A stretch of DNA of 44,614 nucleotides from Clostridiales bacterium (GTDB lineage: Bacteria > Bacillota > Clostridia > Oscillospirales > Feifaniaceae): assembly GCA_012719075.1 (NCBI GenBank), contig JAAYBB010000006.1, positions 1-44,614 on the forward strand. Direction: 5' to 3'. The notes below the pieces were generated by a model, which was given only the letters and a program-made list of their open reading frames with translations, ran no database searches and was not told the origin of the DNA. A program made the translations under genes and the position numbers. This document shows positions 27,429-36,020 of the stretch, in pieces. How positions within the stretch are numbered: the stretch's first letter is position 1; every line of letters starts with the position of its first letter.

Positions 27429-29621
27429 ATGTCAAATTTACTCATTGTGGAGTCCCCGGCCAAGGCCAAGACCATTAAAAAGTACCTCGGCAGCAGCTTC
27501 AAGGTGATGGCCTCGATGGGGCACGTCCGCGACCTGCCCAAGAGCAAGCTGGGCATTGATGTCGACAACAACTTCGAACCGAGCTACATTGCCATCCGCG
27601 GCAAGGGCGATTTGATCAAGGGCCTCAAAAAGGAGGCCAAGAGTGCCAAAAAGGTCTACCTCGGCACCGACCCCGACCGCGAGGGGGAGGCCATTTCATG
27701 GCACCTGTGCCAGCTGCTCGACCTGGACGACCACGCGCCCATCCGGGTCACCTTCAACGAGATCACCAAGCAGGCGGTGCAGCAGGGGGTCAAGAACCCC
27801 CGCCCGCTCAACATGGACCTCGTGGACGCCCAGCAGGCCCGGCGCGTCGTCGACCGCCTGGTGGGGTATAAAATCAGCCCCTTTCTGTGGAAAAAGGTGC
27901 GCAAGGGCCTCTCGGCCGGCCGCGTGCAGTCGGTGGCCACCCGCCTGATCGTGGACCGCGAGGAGGAGATCGAGGCCTTTGTGCCGGTCGAGTACTGGAC
28001 CGTCGAGGCCGACCTGAACACCGAGGGCGGGGAGCTGTTTACGGCCCGCTTTTACGGCGACGCAGGGGGCAAGATCGCCCTCTCCAACCAGCAGGAGACC
28101 GACGAGGTGCTGGCCGTGCTGCGGCAGGCCGGCTACCGCGTGACCTCGGTCAAAAAGGGGCAGAAGCGGCGCAACCCAGCACCCCCCTTCACGACCTCGA
28201 CGCTGCAGCAGGAGGCCTCGCGCAAGCTGGGCTTCACCTCGAGAAAGACCATGTCCATCGCGCAGGAGCTGTACGAGGGCGTCGACATCGAGGGCGTCGG
28301 CCTGATGGGCATCATCACCTATATGCGCACCGATTCGCTGCGCATTTCGCAGGACGCCCTGAACGAGGTGCGGGCCTTTATCGGCAACACCTACGGCGAG
28401 AAGTACCGGCCCAAGTCGCCGCGCGTCTACCGCAGCCGCGGCGGCGCGCAGGACGCCCACGAGACCATCCGCCCCTCTGCGGTCACGCTGCTGCCCGAGC
28501 AGGCGAAGGGCAGCCTGCCGGCCGACCACTACCGGCTGTACAAGCTGATCTGGGATCGCTTTGTGGCCTGCCAGATGGAGTCGCAGGTGCTGGACGTCGT
28601 CAATGTCGAGGTCGAGGCCGACGGCGGCAGCAGGCGCTACCAGTTGCGCGCCTCGGGCAACACGGTCCGCTTTCCGGGCTTTACCGCGATTTACGAGGAG
28701 GCCGCCCCCGAGCGCAGCGGGCGCGAGGGGGAGGAGGCCGACGAGAAGGGGGGCCGGCTGCCGCCGCTCGAGGAGGGCAACCCGCTCTCGCTGGCCGACC
28801 TGCACGGCGACCAGCACTTCACGCAGCCCCCGCCGCGCTTTACCGAGGCCGGGCTCATCAAGGCACTCGAGGAAAACGGCATCGGCCGCCCCTCCACCTA
28901 TGCGCCCACCATCTCGACGATCCTGGCCCGCGACTACGTGGTCAAGGACGGCAAGAGCTTTAAGCCGACGCCGCTGGGCATCGTGACCACGACGCTGATG
29001 AAGGACCACTTCCGCGACATTGTCGACATCGACTTCACGGCCACGATGGAGAGCAACCTCGATCGGGTGGCCGGCGGAGAGGTGGACTGGCAGCAGACCA
29101 TCAAGGCCTTTTACGAGCCCTTTCAAAAGGAGCTCGACCGGGCCGAGACCGAGCTGGGCGGCATCTACTTCAAGGTGCCCGACGAGCAGACCGAGGAGGT
29201 CTGCGAGCGCTGCGGGCGCAACATGGTCATCAAGTCGGGGCGCTACGGCAAGTTTCTGGCCTGCCCCGGCTACCCCGACTGCAAGAACACCAAGCCCTTA
29301 ATCCACGACACCGGCGCCAAGTGCCCCAAGTGCGGCGGGCGCATCGTGCAGCGCGTCAGCAAGAACAAGAACAAGTACTACGCCTGTGAATTCAACCCGA
29401 ACTGCCCCTTCATCACCTGGTACGAGCCGGCCAAGCAGCAGGTCTGCGAACTCTGCGGCAGCGCCATGCTCCAGCATGTGCGCTACGGAAAGAAGAGCCT
29501 GATCTGCGCGAACGACGCCTGTCCGAACGGCCAGGTGCCGGCCCTGCCCAAGGTGGGGGTCGCCGGCGGGGCGCCGGACAAGGAGGGCGAACAGCCAACC
29601 GTGACGGAGGGGTCCGAATGA
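27429..29621 (+). CDS. topA: DNA topoisomerase I
   Basis: Type IA topoisomerase that relaxes negative supercoils through a 5'-phosphotyrosine intermediate. 730 residues: N-terminal Toprim domain (LLIVESPAKAKTI, DPDREGEAISWH near residue 80), central toroid with catalytic Tyr298 in ITYMRTDS and the RPSTYAPTISTIL block, then three C-terminal four-cysteine zinc ribbons starting near residues 591, 631 and 672. All are complete. ATG at 27429, AAGGTGG 7 nt upstream; the frame is open to 27366 without similarity. The ATGA at the end is shared with trmFO. Confidence 0.97.
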   Translation: MSNLLIVESPAKAKTIKKYLGSSFKVMASMGHVRDLPKSKLGIDVDNNFEPSYIAIRGKGDLIKGLKKEAKSAKKVYLGTDPDREGEAISWHLCQLLDLDDHAPIRVTFNEITKQAVQQGVKNPRPLNMDLVDAQQARRVVDRLVGYKISPFLWKKVRKGLSAGRVQSVATRLIVDREEEIEAFVPVEYWTVEADLNTEGGELFTARFYGDAGGKIALSNQQETDEVLAVLRQAGYRVTSVKKGQKRRNPAPPFTTSTLQQEASRKLGFTSRKTMSIAQELYEGVDIEGVGLMGIITYMRTDSLRISQDALNEVRAFIGNTYGEKYRPKSPRVYRSRGGAQDAHETIRPSAVTLLPEQAKGSLPADHYRLYKLIWDRFVACQMESQVLDVVNVEVEADGGSRRYQLRASGNTVRFPGFTAIYEEAAPERSGREGEEADEKGGRLPPLEEGNPLSLADLHGDQHFTQPPPRFTEAGLIKALEENGIGRPSTYAPTISTILARDYVVKDGKSFKPTPLGIVTTTLMKDHFRDIVDIDFTATMESNLDRVAGGEVDWQQTIKAFYEPFQKELDRAETELGGIYFKVPDEQTEEVCERCGRNMVIKSGRYGKFLACPGYPDCKNTKPLIHDTGAKCPKCGGRIVQRVSKNKNKYYACEFNPNCPFITWYEPAKQQVCELCGSAMLQHVRYGKKSLICANDACPNGQVPALPKVGVAGGAPDKEGEQPTVTEGSE

Positions 29622-30919
29622 GCGTGCTGATTGCGGGTGCCGGGCTGGCCGGCAGCGAGGCGGCGTGGCAGCTGCTGCGCCGCGGCGTTGCGGTGGAGCT
29701 GATCGACATCAAGCCGATCGCCTTTACGCCCGCCCACCACAGCGAGGGCTTTGCCGAGCTGGTCTGCTCCAACTCGCTGCGGGCCGAAGGGGTGCTCAAC
29801 GCCGTCGGCCTGCTCAAGGAGGAGATGCGCCGCCTGGGCTCGCTGGTCATGGAGGCGGCCGACGCCACCCGCGTCCCGGCCGGCGGCGCGCTGGCGGTGG
29901 ACCGGGAGGCCTTTTCGCGCTTCATCACCGAGCGGCTGACGGGGCACCGCCTGCTGCGCTACGAGAGCCGCGAGCTGACGGCGCTGCCCGACGACCGGCT
30001 GGCCATCATCGCGACCGGCCCGCTGACCACCGGCGCGCTGTCGGCGGCCATCACCGAGGCCTTCGGGACGGCGCAGCTCTCCTTTTTCGATGCGGCCGCC
30101 CCCATCGTGGAGGCCGACTCCATCGACCGCGAGCGGGTCTTTTTTCAGTCGCGCTACGACAAGGGCGAGGCCGACTACATCAACTGTCCGATGGACCGCG
30201 AGCAGTACGACGCCTTTTACCGGGCGCTGCTCTCGGCCGAGACGGCCGAGCTGCACGGCTTTGAGCAGGGGCAGGTCTTTGAGGGCTGCCTGCCCATCGA
30301 GGTGCTGGCCGGCCGCGGGTACGACACCATGCGCTTTGGCCCCCTCAAGCCGGTCGGACTGGTGGACCCCGCCACCGGGCGGATGCCCCATGCGGTGGTC
30401 CAGCTGCGGCAGGACAATGCCGCCAAAACCCTCTACAACCTGGTCGGCTTTCAAACCCGCCTGAAGTTCGGCGAGCAAAAGCGGGTCTTCTCGATGATTC
30501 CGGGGTTGGAGCGCGCCCGCTTTGCGCGCTACGGCGTCATGCACCGCAACACCTACCTCAACTCGCCCGCGCTGCTGACCAGCACCTACTGCAGCAAGAG
30601 CCGGCCCAACCTCTACTTTGCCGGCCAGCTCAGCGGCGTCGAGGGCTATGTGGAGTCGGCCGCCTCGGGGCTGCTCTGCGGCATCCACGCGGCGCAGCGC
30701 TTCCTTGGCAAAAAGCCGGAGCCCTTTCCGCCCGAGACCGCCATGGGGGCGCTGGCGCACTATGTCGCCACGCCGGGGCGGCGGGACTTTCAGCCCATGA
30801 ACGTCAACTTTGGCATTCTGGCACCGCTCAACTTAAAGGCCTCGGGCCGAAAGGACCGGAACACCAAGCTCGCGGAGCGGGCGCTGCACATCGTCGACCG
30901 ACTGGCGAAAAACCTCTAA
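29618..30919 (+). CDS. trmFO: Methylenetetrahydrofolate-tRNA (uracil-54) methyltransferase
   Basis: FAD- and folate-dependent enzyme that makes 5-methyluridine-54 in tRNA. 433 residues. The FAD-binding GAGLAGSEAAW loop is at residues 6-16, followed by the SNSLRAEG and INCPMDREQY blocks (about 189-198) containing the cysteine next to the active site, and a second nucleotide-binding stretch YFAGQLSGVEGYVES. The C-terminal NVNFGILAPL is typical of the family. It starts in the 4-nt ATGA overlap with topA, so the two are coupled. A terminator follows, and the usual downstream neighbours hslV/codY or plsX are absent here. Confidence 0.95.
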   Translation: MSVLIAGAGLAGSEAAWQLLRRGVAVELIDIKPIAFTPAHHSEGFAELVCSNSLRAEGVLNAVGLLKEEMRRLGSLVMEAADATRVPAGGALAVDREAFSRFITERLTGHRLLRYESRELTALPDDRLAIIATGPLTTGALSAAITEAFGTAQLSFFDAAAPIVEADSIDRERVFFQSRYDKGEADYINCPMDREQYDAFYRALLSAETAELHGFEQGQVFEGCLPIEVLAGRGYDTMRFGPLKPVGLVDPATGRMPHAVVQLRQDNAAKTLYNLVGFQTRLKFGEQKRVFSMIPGLERARFARYGVMHRNTYLNSPALLTSTYCSKSRPNLYFAGQLSGVEGYVESAASGLLCGIHAAQRFLGKKPEPFPPETAMGALAHYVATPGRRDFQPMNVNFGILAPLNLKASGRKDRNTKLAERALHIVDRLAKNL

Positions 30920-30974: not shown

Positions 30975-31004
30975 TTGACAAGTCCAAGGCGTCTTGCGTA
31001 TGAT
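30975..31004 (+). promoter_or_regulatory. Sigma-A promoter of the acp-like/rnc/smc operon
   Basis: TTGACA (30975-30980), 18-bp spacer, TATGAT (30999-31004), 60 nt before the acyl-carrier-like gene. Confidence 0.8.
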
Positions 31005-31063
31005 AGGGTGGAGCACGGGCCGGCGTTGACCCGGTCCTATTTCACAGGTTGAGGTGAACAGCC

Positions 31064-31285
31064 ATGCTCATGGAATTTATCAGAGAACAGCTCGCCCTCC
31101 AGCTCAATGTGGAGGAGGACGCCGTATGGCCCGACACGCGCTTTGACGAGCTCGGGGCCGACGCCGTGGACATCGTTGAACTCGTGATGGCGCTGGAGGC
31201 CGAGTACGGCGTGCTGCTGGAGGACGAGCAGCTGGAGCGCGTCCAGACGGTGGGCGACCTCATCAAGCTGGTCGAGGAGAGCTGA
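31064..31285 (+). CDS. Acyl carrier protein homologue lacking the phosphopantetheine serine
   Basis: 73 residues that align along the whole length with bacterial ACP: helix 1, the loop with FDELGAD, helix 2 IVELVMALEAEYG and the C-terminal helix VGDLIKLVEE. In true ACP the motif at the start of helix 2 is Asp-Ser-Leu-Asp and the Ser carries 4'-phosphopantetheine. Here it reads Asp-Ala-Val-Asp: residue 34 is Ala (GCC at 31163-31165), one base from TCC Ser. The fold and acidic surface look intact, so it is not an evident pseudogene, but it cannot carry acyl chains. Position before rnc-smc is the canonical acpP place. It may act as an apo-ACP-like partner protein, or be a relic while a functional ACP lies elsewhere. 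GAGGTGA lies 7 nt before ATG 31064. Confidence 0.9.
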   Translation: MLMEFIREQLALQLNVEEDAVWPDTRFDELGADAVDIVELVMALEAEYGVLLEDEQLERVQTVGDLIKLVEES

Positions 31286-31343: not shown

Positions 31344-32048
31344 CTGACCAGGGACGAAGGCCGGCAGCTTGCACAGCTGCAGGAAAAGCTGGGGCACCGG
31401 TTTGCCCAGCCGGCGCTGCTGGTGAGCGCCATGACCCACTCCTCCTTTGCCAACGAACAAAAGCCAAACCAGGTGGCCTGCAACGAGCGGCTGGAGTTTT
31501 TGGGGGATTCTGTGCTCTCGCTGATCGTGTCGCGCTACCTGTTTACGCACTACGACAGGCTGCCCGAAGGAGACCTGTCCAAGGTGCGCGCAGCGGTGGT
31601 CAACGAGAAGTCGCTGGCTGGCTTTGCGCGCAAGCTGGGGCTGGGCACCTTTTTGCGCATGGGCCGCGGCGAGGAGCAAAACCAGGGCAGAAAGCGCGAC
31701 TCCATCCTGGCCGACGCGTTTGAGGCCCTGATCGCCGCGCTCTACCTCGACGGCGACTTTGAGGCCGCCGAGGCCTTTTTGATGCCGCTGCTCGAGCGGG
31801 CGGTGGAGGCGGCCATCTCGGGCAAGCGCTTTAAGGACTACAAGACCGAGCTGCAGGAGATCGTGCAGAAGAACAAGGAGGAGACCCTCAGCTACGAGCT
31901 GGTCTCGGCCGACGGGCCGGACCACAACAAGCTGTTTGAGGTGCAGATCTACCTCAACAGCAACCCGATTGCCAAGGGCCGGGGGCGCAGTAAGAAGGAG
32001 GCCGAGCAGCAGGCGGCGCGGGCCGCGCTGGAGCTGATGGGCCAGTGA
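31344..32048 (+). CDS. rnc: Ribonuclease III (non-canonical CTG start)
   Basis: Double-strand-specific endoribonuclease that processes rRNA precursors and structured mRNAs. About 234 residues: catalytic domain with signature ERLEFLGDSVLSL (about 49-61) and the second acidic site in DAFEALIAALY (about 128-138), then a C-terminal dsRNA-binding domain (DYKTELQEIVQ ... KKEAEQQAARAAL). No ATG, GTG or TTG exists in frame between the stop at 31326-31328 and GTG 31422, yet the LGHRFAQPALLVSAMTHSSF region upstream of 31422 is conserved. AGGAGG at 31330-31335 is 8 nt before CTG 31344 and only 2 nt before ATT 31338, so CTG is favoured. Second gene of the acp-like-rnc-smc-ftsY cluster. Confidence 0.94.
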   Translation: MTRDEGRQLAQLQEKLGHRFAQPALLVSAMTHSSFANEQKPNQVACNERLEFLGDSVLSLIVSRYLFTHYDRLPEGDLSKVRAAVVNEKSLAGFARKLGLGTFLRMGRGEEQNQGRKRDSILADAFEALIAALYLDGDFEAAEAFLMPLLERAVEAAISGKRFKDYKTELQEIVQKNKEETLSYELVSADGPDHNKLFEVQIYLNSNPIAKGRGRSKKEAEQQAARAALELMGQ

Positions 32049-32070: not shown

Positions 32071-32517
32071 TCTCGCTTTTGCGCGGTGCTCTCGGCGCAC
32101 TGCGAGGCGGCCGACGTGCCCATCGTCAAAGTGGGGCTGCACGCCGAGCCGGGCTTTGAGCGGGGCGAGCGGGTGGCCGGCCCCCACCACCCCGTCTTTC
32201 GGGAGCTGGCCGAGGGGGCGTGCCACCTCGCCGTGGCATTGGACAAGCTGGAGGAGGTTGACGTACGCGGGCGGCGGCTGGTGCTGCTGGTCGCGCCGGG
32301 CAGGACCTCCCGCATGGCGGGGCAGGGCGGCGTCAACCGCTGGCAGTTGCTCGGGCACAGCGGCGCCGCAAGGCTGTCCATCCGCGAGCGGGCGGGGCTG
32401 GCCCCCTTTGAGGTCCAGGTTGAGATCGAACCGCGCCAAACCAAGACGAAACGGAGTTGCCTATGCGCCTCAAACAGGTGGAGATCAGCGGGTTCAAGTC
32501 CTTTCCCGACAAAGTGA
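32071..32517 (+). pseudogene. Remnant: C-terminal domain of a radical SAM protein (Elp3-like)
   Basis: Between rnc and smc one frame encodes about 120 residues resembling the C-terminal domain of the radical SAM proteins (COG1243, Elp3-like) that sit between rnc and smc in many Clostridia: CEAADVPIVKVGLH, then VAGPHHPVFRELAEG, and the later GQGGVNRW. The whole N-terminal radical SAM barrel with its CxxxCxxC iron-sulfur motif is missing. The similarity begins about 25 nt after the rnc stop, as though a deletion fused the two. No ribosome binding site precedes GTG 32086, and the frame runs 55 nt into smc. It is probably untranslated debris; an assembly deletion cannot be excluded. Family assignment is from memory of the motif pattern. 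Confidence 0.65.
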
Positions 32518-35500
32518 ATATCGACTTCGGGGACGGGATCACCGCCATCGTGGGGCCCAACGGCAGCGGCAAGAGCAACCTCGTGGACGCGGCGCGCTGG
32601 GTGCTGGGCGAGCAGAGCGCCAAAACGCTGCGCGGCGGCAAGATGGAGGACATGATCTTTGGCGGCGCGGCCGGCCGTCGGCCGGTCGGCCTGGCCGAGG
32701 TCTCGCTGGTCATCGACAACGCCGACGGGCAGCTGCCCACGCCCATGCAGGAGGTGCGGGTCACCCGCCGGCTCTACCGCTCGGGCGAGAGCGAGTACCT
32801 GCTGGGCGGGCGGCCGGTGCGGCTGCGGGACGTCTACGAGCTGTTCATGAACACCGGCATCGGGCGGGACGGCTACTCGGTCATCGGGCAGGGCCGCATC
32901 GCCGAGGTGCTGTCGGCCCGCAGCGACGAGCGGCGCACCATCTTTGAGGAGGCGGCCGGCATTGCCCGCTACCGCTACCGCCGCAATGAGTCGCAGCGGC
33001 GGCTGGAGGCCGCCGAGGCCAACCTCGTGCGGCTGCGGGACATCCTGTCGGGCTACGCCTCCCGCGTCGAGCCGCTGCGGCTCCAGATGGAGCGGGCCAG
33101 GAAGTACCTGGTCTACAGCGAGGAGCGCAAGGGGCTTGAAATCAATGTCTGGCTGCACAGCCTCGAGCAGACGCAGGACCAGGTCTCGAAGGCCGTGGAC
33201 GACCATCAGATCGCCACGGCCCAGCTGGCCGACCTGGGCGAGCGGCAGCAGCAGGCCGACCTGGCGCTGGAGGCGCAGACCGGCCGCGTGCAGCAGATCC
33301 ATGTGGAAATCGACGGGGCGCTGCGCAATCAGCGGGCGCTGGCCGAGCAGGGCGCCGCCGCGGGCAGCGCGGCCGCCGTGGCCGAGGCCGAGCTGCGGCA
33401 CAACGCCGAGCAGCGGCAGCAGCTGCTGCACAGCGCGGCGCAGTCGGGCGAGCGCCTGCAGGCCCAGCAGGGGCGCAGGCAGGCGCTCGCGGAGCAGCTT
33501 CTCCAGCACCGGCAGGCGCTGCAGGCGCAGCGGCAGCAGGTGGAGGGGCTGCAGCAGGCGCTGCGGCAGGAGGCGCTCCAGGAGGTGGAGCGCCAGATCG
33601 CCGACCTGCGGCTTTTGCTGTTTGAGCAGGCCGACCGCCTGTCGGAGCGGCGGGTGGCGCAGAGCGCCGCGGCGGCGGCCGCCGCCGCCGAGCGCGAGAA
33701 CGGCGCCCGCATCGGCAGGGAGCTCGAGGTCGCCGCACAGCAGCTGGCGCAGCGCGAGCAGGCGCATGCGGCGCTGCAGCAGGCGCTGGAGCGCGCGCGG
33801 GCGACCGCCGCCGACTGTCAAAACGCCATCCGCGGCCGGCAGATGCTGCAGGAGGGCCGCAAAAAGCGGCTCGAGGAGGCCTCTGCCGAGCTCGAGCAGG
33901 CCGGGCGGGCGCTGGCCGAGCGGCAGGAGCAGCACCGGCTGCTGGTGGGCATGGAGCAGAGCCGCGAGGGCTTTTCGGGCGCCGCCAAGCTGGTGCTCGA
34001 GGAGGCTGCGCACGGGCGCCTGCAGGGTGTGCGCGGCGCCCTCTCGTCGCTGATCGGCACCGACCCGAAGTATGCGCTGGCCATTGAGACGGCGCTGGGG
34101 CCGGCGCTGCAGAACATCGTGGTGGACACCGAGCAGCAGGCCAAGGCGGCCATCGGGCTGCTGCAGCGCCGGCAGGCCGGGCGGGCCACCTTTTTGCCGC
34201 GGAGCGCCATCCGGCCGGGCAGGGATCGGCCGAAGGCCGAGGGCAGTCTGGGCGTTGCGGCCGACCTCGTGACCTGCGGCGCCGAGGTCGCCGACATCGT
34301 CAGCTCCCTGCTGGGCCGCACGCTGGTGGCCGAGCGCATGGACGACGCCATCGCGCTGGCCAGGCGGGACGGCCACCGCTACCGCGTGGTGACGCTGGAC
34401 GGCCAGGTCATCAATGCCGGCGGCTCCATGACCGGCGGCTCGCAGGTCAAGGGGGCGGGGCTGCTGACCCGCCGGGGCCGCATCGAAGAGTTGGCCGAGG
34501 CCATTGCCGCGCAGCAGGGCGCGCTGGAGCAGCTCGCGCGGAGGCGCGAGGGGCTGGCCGGCGAGCTCGCGCTGGCGCAGGCCGAGCTCGAGGGCGCGCA
34601 GGCCGAGCTGCAGACGGCGCTGGAGGCCGCTGCGCGCACAGAGGCACAGCTGGAGGGCGCATGGCAGGCGGTCGAGGGGCTGCGGCAGCAGCACCGGGGG
34701 CTGCTGGGACAGCTTGGCGACAGCGGGGCGGCCGCCTCGAGGCTGGAGGGCGAGGCGGCCCTGGCCGAGACCGACACCCGGCAGCTGCAGGAGCGGCAGC
34801 GGGAGCTCGAGGCGCAGCTGCGCCAGCTGGAGCTCGAACAGGCGCAGGCGGCCGAATCGGTCTCGCAGGCGCTCGCCCACATCAACGAACGGCGGGTGGA
34901 GCTGGCCGCCTTTGAGAAGGAGACCGAGGGCCTTGCGGCCCAGCTGCAGGAGTTGGAGGCCGCCATCTCGCTGTCGGGCGCCGACCGGGCGCAGCTGGAG
35001 GCCCGGCAGCAGGCGCTGCAGCAGGCTGAAGAGGCGCTGCGGACACAGCTGGACCGGCACCGCGCGGAGCTGCTGCAGGCGGAGCAGGGGCAGCAGGAGC
35101 AGACCGCCCGCGTGGCCGCGCTGACCGCCGAGCGGGAGCAGGCCGAGCGCATGCAGGTGGCGCTGCGGCAGCAGTCGCGCGAGCTGGCCGACCAGAAGGA
35201 GCTGCTGGCGGCCGAGCAGGCCAGGACCGAGGCCAGGCGGCAGCAGATCGAGGCCGAGCGCGAGAGCCTGACCGCCCAGCTCTTTGACGAGTACGAGCTC
35301 ACGGTCTCGCAGGCGCAGGCGCTGCGCACGCCGATGGCGAGCAAGGCGGAGGCGCTAAAGCGCATCCAGACGCTCAAAACCGCCATCCGCCAGTTGGGGC
35401 CGGTCAACGTCGGCGCCGTCGACGAGTACCGCGAGGTTAAGCAGCAGTTCGACTTCTACACCGGGCAGATCGAGGACCTCGAGACCGGGAAGCGGGAGCT

Positions 35501-36020
35501 CGAGCGCATCATCGGGGAGCTGACCCGCGAGATGAAGCAGATTTTCGCCGACCAGTTCGCCGTGATCAACGCCCACTTCGGGCGGGTGTTCGGCGACCTG
35601 TTCGGCGGCGGAACGGCCACGCTGACGCTCTCGGACCCCTCCGACGTGCTGGGCTCCGGCATCGACATCCACGTGCGGCCCGAGGGCAAGGTCATCAACC
35701 AGCTCAGCGCCCTCTCGGGCGGGGAGCAGGCGCTGACCGCCATCGCGCTCTACTTCGCCATCCTCGAGGTGCGGCCCTCGCCCTTTGTCATCCTCGACGA
35801 GATCGACACGGCGCTCGACGAGATCAACGTGCAGCGCCTGGCCAACTACTACAAGCGCTTTTCCGGCCGGGTGCAGCTGATCCTGGTCACCCACCGCCGC
35901 GGCACCATGGAGGCCTGCGACATCCTGTACGGCGTCACGATGCAGGAGCGGGGGGTCTCCAAGCTGCTCAAGATCGACGTCAACGACCTCGAAAAAGAAA
36001 TCGGACTGACGGCCAAGTAG
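32463..36020 (+). CDS. smc: Chromosome segregation protein SMC
   Basis: Condensin ATPase that organises and separates sister chromosomes with ScpA/ScpB. 1185 residues in the standard layout: ATPase head N-part with Walker A GPNGSGKSN (about 31-39), long coiled coil, hinge domain (about 500-660) with FSGAAKLVLEEA, GVRGALSSLI and the GGSMTGGS loop, return coiled coil, then head C-part with signature LSGGEQALTA (about 1082) and Walker B FVILDEID (about 1107). The coils are extremely rich in Ala, Gln, Glu and Arg, including a run of eight Ala near residue 405. ATG 32463 (MRLKQVEISGFKSF) has GGAG 6 nt upstream. ftsY follows after 28 nt. Confidence 0.97.
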   Translation: MRLKQVEISGFKSFPDKVNIDFGDGITAIVGPNGSGKSNLVDAARWVLGEQSAKTLRGGKMEDMIFGGAAGRRPVGLAEVSLVIDNADGQLPTPMQEVRVTRRLYRSGESEYLLGGRPVRLRDVYELFMNTGIGRDGYSVIGQGRIAEVLSARSDERRTIFEEAAGIARYRYRRNESQRRLEAAEANLVRLRDILSGYASRVEPLRLQMERARKYLVYSEERKGLEINVWLHSLEQTQDQVSKAVDDHQIATAQLADLGERQQQADLALEAQTGRVQQIHVEIDGALRNQRALAEQGAAAGSAAAVAEAELRHNAEQRQQLLHSAAQSGERLQAQQGRRQALAEQLLQHRQALQAQRQQVEGLQQALRQEALQEVERQIADLRLLLFEQADRLSERRVAQSAAAAAAAAERENGARIGRELEVAAQQLAQREQAHAALQQALERARATAADCQNAIRGRQMLQEGRKKRLEEASAELEQAGRALAERQEQHRLLVGMEQSREGFSGAAKLVLEEAAHGRLQGVRGALSSLIGTDPKYALAIETALGPALQNIVVDTEQQAKAAIGLLQRRQAGRATFLPRSAIRPGRDRPKAEGSLGVAADLVTCGAEVADIVSSLLGRTLVAERMDDAIALARRDGHRYRVVTLDGQVINAGGSMTGGSQVKGAGLLTRRGRIEELAEAIAAQQGALEQLARRREGLAGELALAQAELEGAQAELQTALEAAARTEAQLEGAWQAVEGLRQQHRGLLGQLGDSGAAASRLEGEAALAETDTRQLQERQRELEAQLRQLELEQAQAAESVSQALAHINERRVELAAFEKETEGLAAQLQELEAAISLSGADRAQLEARQQALQQAEEALRTQLDRHRAELLQAEQGQQEQTARVAALTAEREQAERMQVALRQQSRELADQKELLAAEQARTEARRQQIEAERESLTAQLFDEYELTVSQAQALRTPMASKAEALKRIQTLKTAIRQLGPVNVGAVDEYREVKQQFDFYTGQIEDLETGKRELERIIGELTREMKQIFADQFAVINAHFGRVFGDLFGGGTATLTLSDPSDVLGSGIDIHVRPEGKVINQLSALSGGEQALTAIALYFAILEVRPSPFVILDEIDTALDEINVQRLANYYKRFSGRVQLILVTHRRGTMEACDILYGVTMQERGVSKLLKIDVNDLEKEIGLTAK

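Follow-up and report, generated by a model that had tools for sequence, protein, structure and literature searches.

The window, a contig of 44,614 nucleotides (C22) from the many-contig draft of a Clostridiales genome (G000; 1.88 Mb, 92.8% complete), carries a small forward-strand gene at 31064..31285 that encodes an acyl carrier protein (ACP)-like protein of 73 amino acids, assigned from its open reading frame, profile matches and predicted structure. Its upstream neighbor is the tRNA methyltransferase gene trmFO (29618..30919, forward strand), and it is followed on the same strand by rnc, encoding RNase III (31344..32048), and smc (32457..36020); trmFO and smc were placed from the open-reading-frame list and by neighborhood comparison. 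The ACP-like frame starts with ATG, is intact and is preceded by a ribosome-binding-like GAGGTGA (31051..31057, forward strand; both by direct reading). Motif search located a forward-strand promoter-like site, TTGACA-18-TATGAT, at 30975..31004, which matches the consensus at 11 of 12 positions and of which 0.1 are expected in shuffles of the region. Translation of rnc likely starts at CTG 31344, which follows a strong AGGAGGGG site and is in frame with the listed open reading frame from GTG 31422; gene callers restricted to ATG, GTG and TTG would cut 26 residues off RNase III here (31344-31422). Between rnc and smc lies what is left of an Elp3-like radical SAM gene, its C-terminal part (32077..32202, forward strand), recognized by comparison with the related genomes G006 and G007.

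Ordinary ACPs are small bacterial proteins that carry growing fatty acids, and helix 2 is where all of them are most conserved. The motif that usually reads GADSLDxVEL is GADAVDIVEL in the window protein, in which Ala34 (codon GCC, 31163..31165, forward strand; direct reading and codon comparison) replaces the serine at the phosphopantetheine position. The preceding residues read FDELGAD instead of F-x-DDLGAD, one residue fewer before the motif, which is a family-wide feature of these rnc-linked ACPs. Pfam PF00550 (PP-binding) covers the full length of the protein with 46.9 bits (cut-off 20.8). The NCBIfam ACP models score it slightly under their cut-offs, among them the FASII ACP equivalog TIGR00517 at 62.7 bits against 70.45. 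An AlphaFold2 model built from 23 homologues (mean pLDDT 93.3) has the usual ACP helices, finds the ACP 5h9g as its closest PDB match (TMq 0.90) and overlays solved structures of both apo- and holo-ACPs in a four-helix ACP fold. The predicted fold is thus intact while the attachment serine is missing, and the protein is classed as a homologue of ACPs and not as a functional carrier. The first-pass annotation had described a full-length ACP-like protein with Ala34 in the acpP slot before rnc, which the reading frame, PF00550 and the model all confirm; its further statement that holo-ACP cannot form on this protein is supported by the alanine at the phosphopantetheine position.

The family of this genome comprises eight genomes, four of which (G002-G005; drafts 92-98% complete) make up a sister genus, g3. 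The order dprA-topA-trmFO-ACP-rnc-smc is common to G000 and all g3 genomes, and runs on to ftsY and rdgB where the available stretch extends that far. In G006 and G007 plsX stands between trmFO and the ACP gene, a slot in which it is found in neither G000 nor g3, and in G001 plsX lies between trmFO and rnc with no ACP gene before rnc. All four g3 genomes have TTGACA-17-TATGAT upstream of the ACP orthologue in the same intergenic space, such that a near-consensus promoter-like site precedes the gene in five of five genomes when G000 is counted; the ACP genes of G006 and G007 showed no equivalent site nearby. Because this site presumably also drives rnc, its conservation alone does not prove that the ACP is needed. 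G006 and G007 have a complete copy of the Elp3-like radical SAM gene between rnc and smc, whereas only the fragment remains in G000 and no copy is detectable in g3; the remnant is an internal control for gene decay within the ACP operon.

We searched G000 with PF00550 and obtained three ACPs: the window copy, one on contig C60 and one on C34. The C60 protein carries GLDSLD and lies within a complete FASII cluster whose genes are, in order, birA, a phosphopantetheinyl transferase (PPTase) gene, plsX (on the opposite strand), a MarR-type regulator, fabH, acpP, fabK, fabD, fabG, a second FabK-like gene, fabF, accB, fabZ, accC, accD and accA. These names come from sequence reading, with profiles confirming plsX, the PPTase, fabD and acpP. 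The second ACP with a DSL motif that the first-pass annotation proposed looking for therefore exists, and since it is encoded in the FASII cluster the window protein is not the FASII carrier of its genome, whether sole or main. The window protein shares fold, length, helix-2 sequence and position before rnc with bacterial FASII ACPs (AcpP/AcpA; PF00550, TIGR00517), but it differs from them in lacking the 4'-phosphopantetheine serine, in having no holo or acyl form and in leaving the FASII role to another copy. The third ACP-like sequence (GFNSLS; C34, 13336-13500) lies at the contig end, adjacent to a long protein of collagen-like repeats.

The G000 ACP shares 58-61% identity with its g3 orthologues. 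Ala34, for which the first-pass annotation had proposed a check of fixation in relatives, is not fixed in g3: residue 34 is Ser in G002, G003 and G005 (codon TCC in each) and Pro in G004 (CCG). Every other rnc-linked ACP that we read has Ser. In trees of trmFO and rnc, G000 groups with g3 (moderate support, 89-93% bootstrap) and G004 falls inside g3, so the serine has been lost at least twice, once to Ala in G000 and once to Pro in G004.

PlsX is the protein known to connect acyl-phosphate with ACP. Profile searches of the four g3 genomes recovered neither PlsX nor FabD in any of them, PF00550 found no ACP besides the rnc-linked copy, and PF01648 found no PPTase. Since PPTases in this family are divergent (that of G007 was overlooked by Pfam and picked up by a profile of the G000 and G006 PPTases), we searched once more with a profile built from three PPTases of the family itself, which again yielded none in any g3 genome and none in G001 either, although G001 has FASII genes. 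Searches for PlsY recovered it from three of the four g3 genomes and from neither G001 nor G005. Single absences are no proof in these drafts, because a PPTase goes undetected in the FASII-bearing G001 and PlsY in G001 and G005; on the profile results, PPTase is nevertheless likely absent from g3. Acyl-phosphate is probably still used in this genus, given PlsY in three of its genomes, and perhaps derives from scavenged fatty acids. With no detectable FabD, PlsX or PPTase and with PlsY in three genomes, g3 (G002-G005; L014-L017) appears to have an unusual lipid supply.

We calculated pairwise pN/pS over codons 2-72, together with NG86 values and with rnc for comparison. Within g3, values for the ACP gene range from 0.15 to 0.31 (Fisher p from 4e-11 to 7e-7), and reading frames are open throughout; the Pro34 allele of G004 and the Ser34 allele of G002 give 0.17. 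The g3 ACP gene is thus under purifying selection. Absence from all four genomes suggests that FASII and PlsX were lost before g3 diversified; if so, the gene remained constrained when its carrier role was over. Comparisons of G000 with g3 give 0.40-0.53 (p from 2e-7 to 2e-3), with synonymous change near saturation. Constraint after the loss is therefore supported for g3 and not for G000 itself, where a long branch leads to Ala34 and the substitution may be of recent date. Between G000 and g3 the block containing the motif and helix 2 is 75-83% identical and helix 1 35-46%, which supports the first-pass statement that helix 2 is conserved; this is weak evidence by itself, because helix 2 is the most conserved region in ordinary ACPs too.

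These observations lead us to favor, with some reserve, the view that the rnc-linked ACP has a dispensable carrier role and persists as a protein that is always apo and works through binding partners. Its carrier function would have become dispensable in this lineage, in G000, where the separate FASII ACP would do all acyl carrying, and in g3, where the rnc-linked orthologue appears to be the only ACP left, with FabD, PlsX and PPTase not found. The protein without serine would still be made, would stay apo and would bind one or more partner proteins via its conserved helix 2-3 face. An SMC-type protein is our best lead for such a partner, although a guess by analogy, since AcpP of Escherichia coli stimulates the SMC-family protein MukB equally in apo and holo form and smc lies in the ACP operon. 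An IscS-type partner seems less likely because E. coli ACP requires Ser36 to bind IscS (PMC13343975), and the literature offers no support for RNase III as a partner. The precedents make an apo role plausible and would rank an SMC-type partner ahead of a desulfurase. A more far-reaching version, in which FASII, PlsX and PPTase were lost in one genus, the serine was lost at least twice and an apo ACP fully uncoupled from lipid metabolism was kept to fulfil an essential role in protein-protein contacts at the rnc-smc locus, we put forward only tentatively, as somewhat doubtful.

Alternatively, the gene might be a relic paralogue under relaxed selection, which once served PlsX and is now on its way out, the FASII ACP having taken over after plsX left the slot and the serine having drifted away in G000 and G004. 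Consistent with this, plsX directly precedes the ACP gene in G006 and G007 but not in G000 or g3, the FASII cluster of G000 is complete and includes an ACP, PlsX and PPTase of its own, pN/pS is higher between G000 and g3 than within g3, and G001 has lost the rnc-linked ACP outright, which shows that the local copy can be dispensed with where a FASII ACP exists and so also counts against a retained apo protein. We nevertheless consider a relic unlikely. The g3 genes keep open frames and low pN/pS in four genomes that all lack PlsX and FabD, the promoter is conserved, and the radical SAM neighbor shows what decay looks like at this locus. The first-pass annotation had left open whether the protein is a repurposed apo-ACP or a relic paralogue, and it is the former that is favored by the state of the gene in g3: a sole ACP under purifying selection behind a conserved promoter, with no detectable FabD, PlsX or PPTase.

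A further reading, which we also regard as unlikely, has the g3 orthologues remaining holo and linked to lipids by a PPTase that is missing from the assemblies or has diverged too far to be found, and the serine lost only from the redundant copy of G000 and from G004. Three of the four g3 species keep Ser (TCC), so that their ACPs could be holo should a PPTase have escaped detection, which counts against the apo protein that we prefer; the family's PPTases are indeed divergent enough for Pfam to miss one that a second profile found, and the presence of PlsY in three of the g3 genomes suggests that acyl-phosphate use continues. However, the three-member family profile detects no PPTase in any g3 genome, PlsX is absent from all four, and G004 has Pro34 and no other ACP. 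An assembly or sequencing error at codon 34 of G000 is highly improbable. TCC to GCC is a one-base change in a draft of many contigs, and relatives with Ser, which the first-pass annotation had named in connection with a lone assembly error, do exist in three g3 species, but codon 34 reads CCG in G004, an independent genome, and the frame and the remainder of the G000 protein are clean.

The closest precedent is the mitochondrial ACP (mACP) of Plasmodium and other apicomplexans, in which the serine is changed to Phe, Cys or Gly. There an ACP without serine has been kept after FASII and PPTase were lost from its compartment, and the organism has another, canonical ACP in a different place, as G000 does. 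The window protein is a bacterial variant of this kind. As in the Plasmodium protein, the serine is replaced (here by Ala or Pro) and the rest is constrained at the pN/pS values given above. As to the setting, FASII and PPTase were not found in g3 and are present on another contig in G000, and PPTase is likewise undetected in the FASII-bearing G001. In Plasmodium, where the residue is Phe, the protein is essential, and it binds Isd11-Nfs1 independently of phosphopantetheine (PMC8547962). It differs in being eukaryotic and in having this known partner in Fe-S assembly. E. coli AcpP as a partner of MukB offers a second parallel in that an ACP function is independent of phosphopantetheine, apo-AcpP being sufficient and apo- and holo-AcpP stimulating the MukB ATPase equally (PMC8602292). 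E. coli AcpP, however, retains Ser36 and serves in FASII, and MukB is a distant SMC relative. An E. coli ACP with S36T cannot replace AcpP (PMC3340395), and activation of IscS, beyond binding, needs acyl-ACP (PMC13343975). FASII-less Mollicutes such as JCVI-syn3A keep an ACP in a genome without fatty-acid synthesis, as g3 appears to, but they retain AcpS, PlsX and fatty acid kinase and their ACP is holo (PMC6609329). They differ in this from g3, where PlsX and PPTase were not found.

ACP binds many proteins outside lipid synthesis, including MukB, SpoT and IscS, and in bacteria its essential carrier role masks whether such contacts matter. A lineage with a serine-less ACP, one genus of which apparently has no loading enzymes, is a natural separation-of-function mutant, in which the non-lipid role is whatever keeps the ACP gene alive. 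Should the full uncoupling considered above be true, it would amount to a natural genetic separation of a moonlighting role from acyl carrying in bacteria. We found no earlier report of a stand-alone bacterial ACP lacking the serine in the literature searched, the coverage of which is incomplete. To gauge rarity we scanned DNA for the motif GxD[not Ser]xDxxE/DxxM, which leaves out Ser-to-Gly, Cys, Arg and aromatic changes and misses ACPs departing from the motif elsewhere; among 394 genomes of the order it matched three, namely G000 (Ala), G004 (Pro) and G120, the last being a chance match within an unrelated gene region and not an ACP. Among 391 genomes of the class, a set partly overlapping with the first, it matched G000, two further sequences that are again chance matches and not ACPs, and G676. 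A scan of named genomes with an ACP alignment returned distant ACPs with Ser and no named close relatives. The match in G676 (G676:C1; L165, 1501-1536) is a real stand-alone ACP with Asp for Ser (GFDDLDMVEL) at an unrelated locus away from rnc, where it sits among small open reading frames not recognized as FASII genes, possibly in a mobile element.
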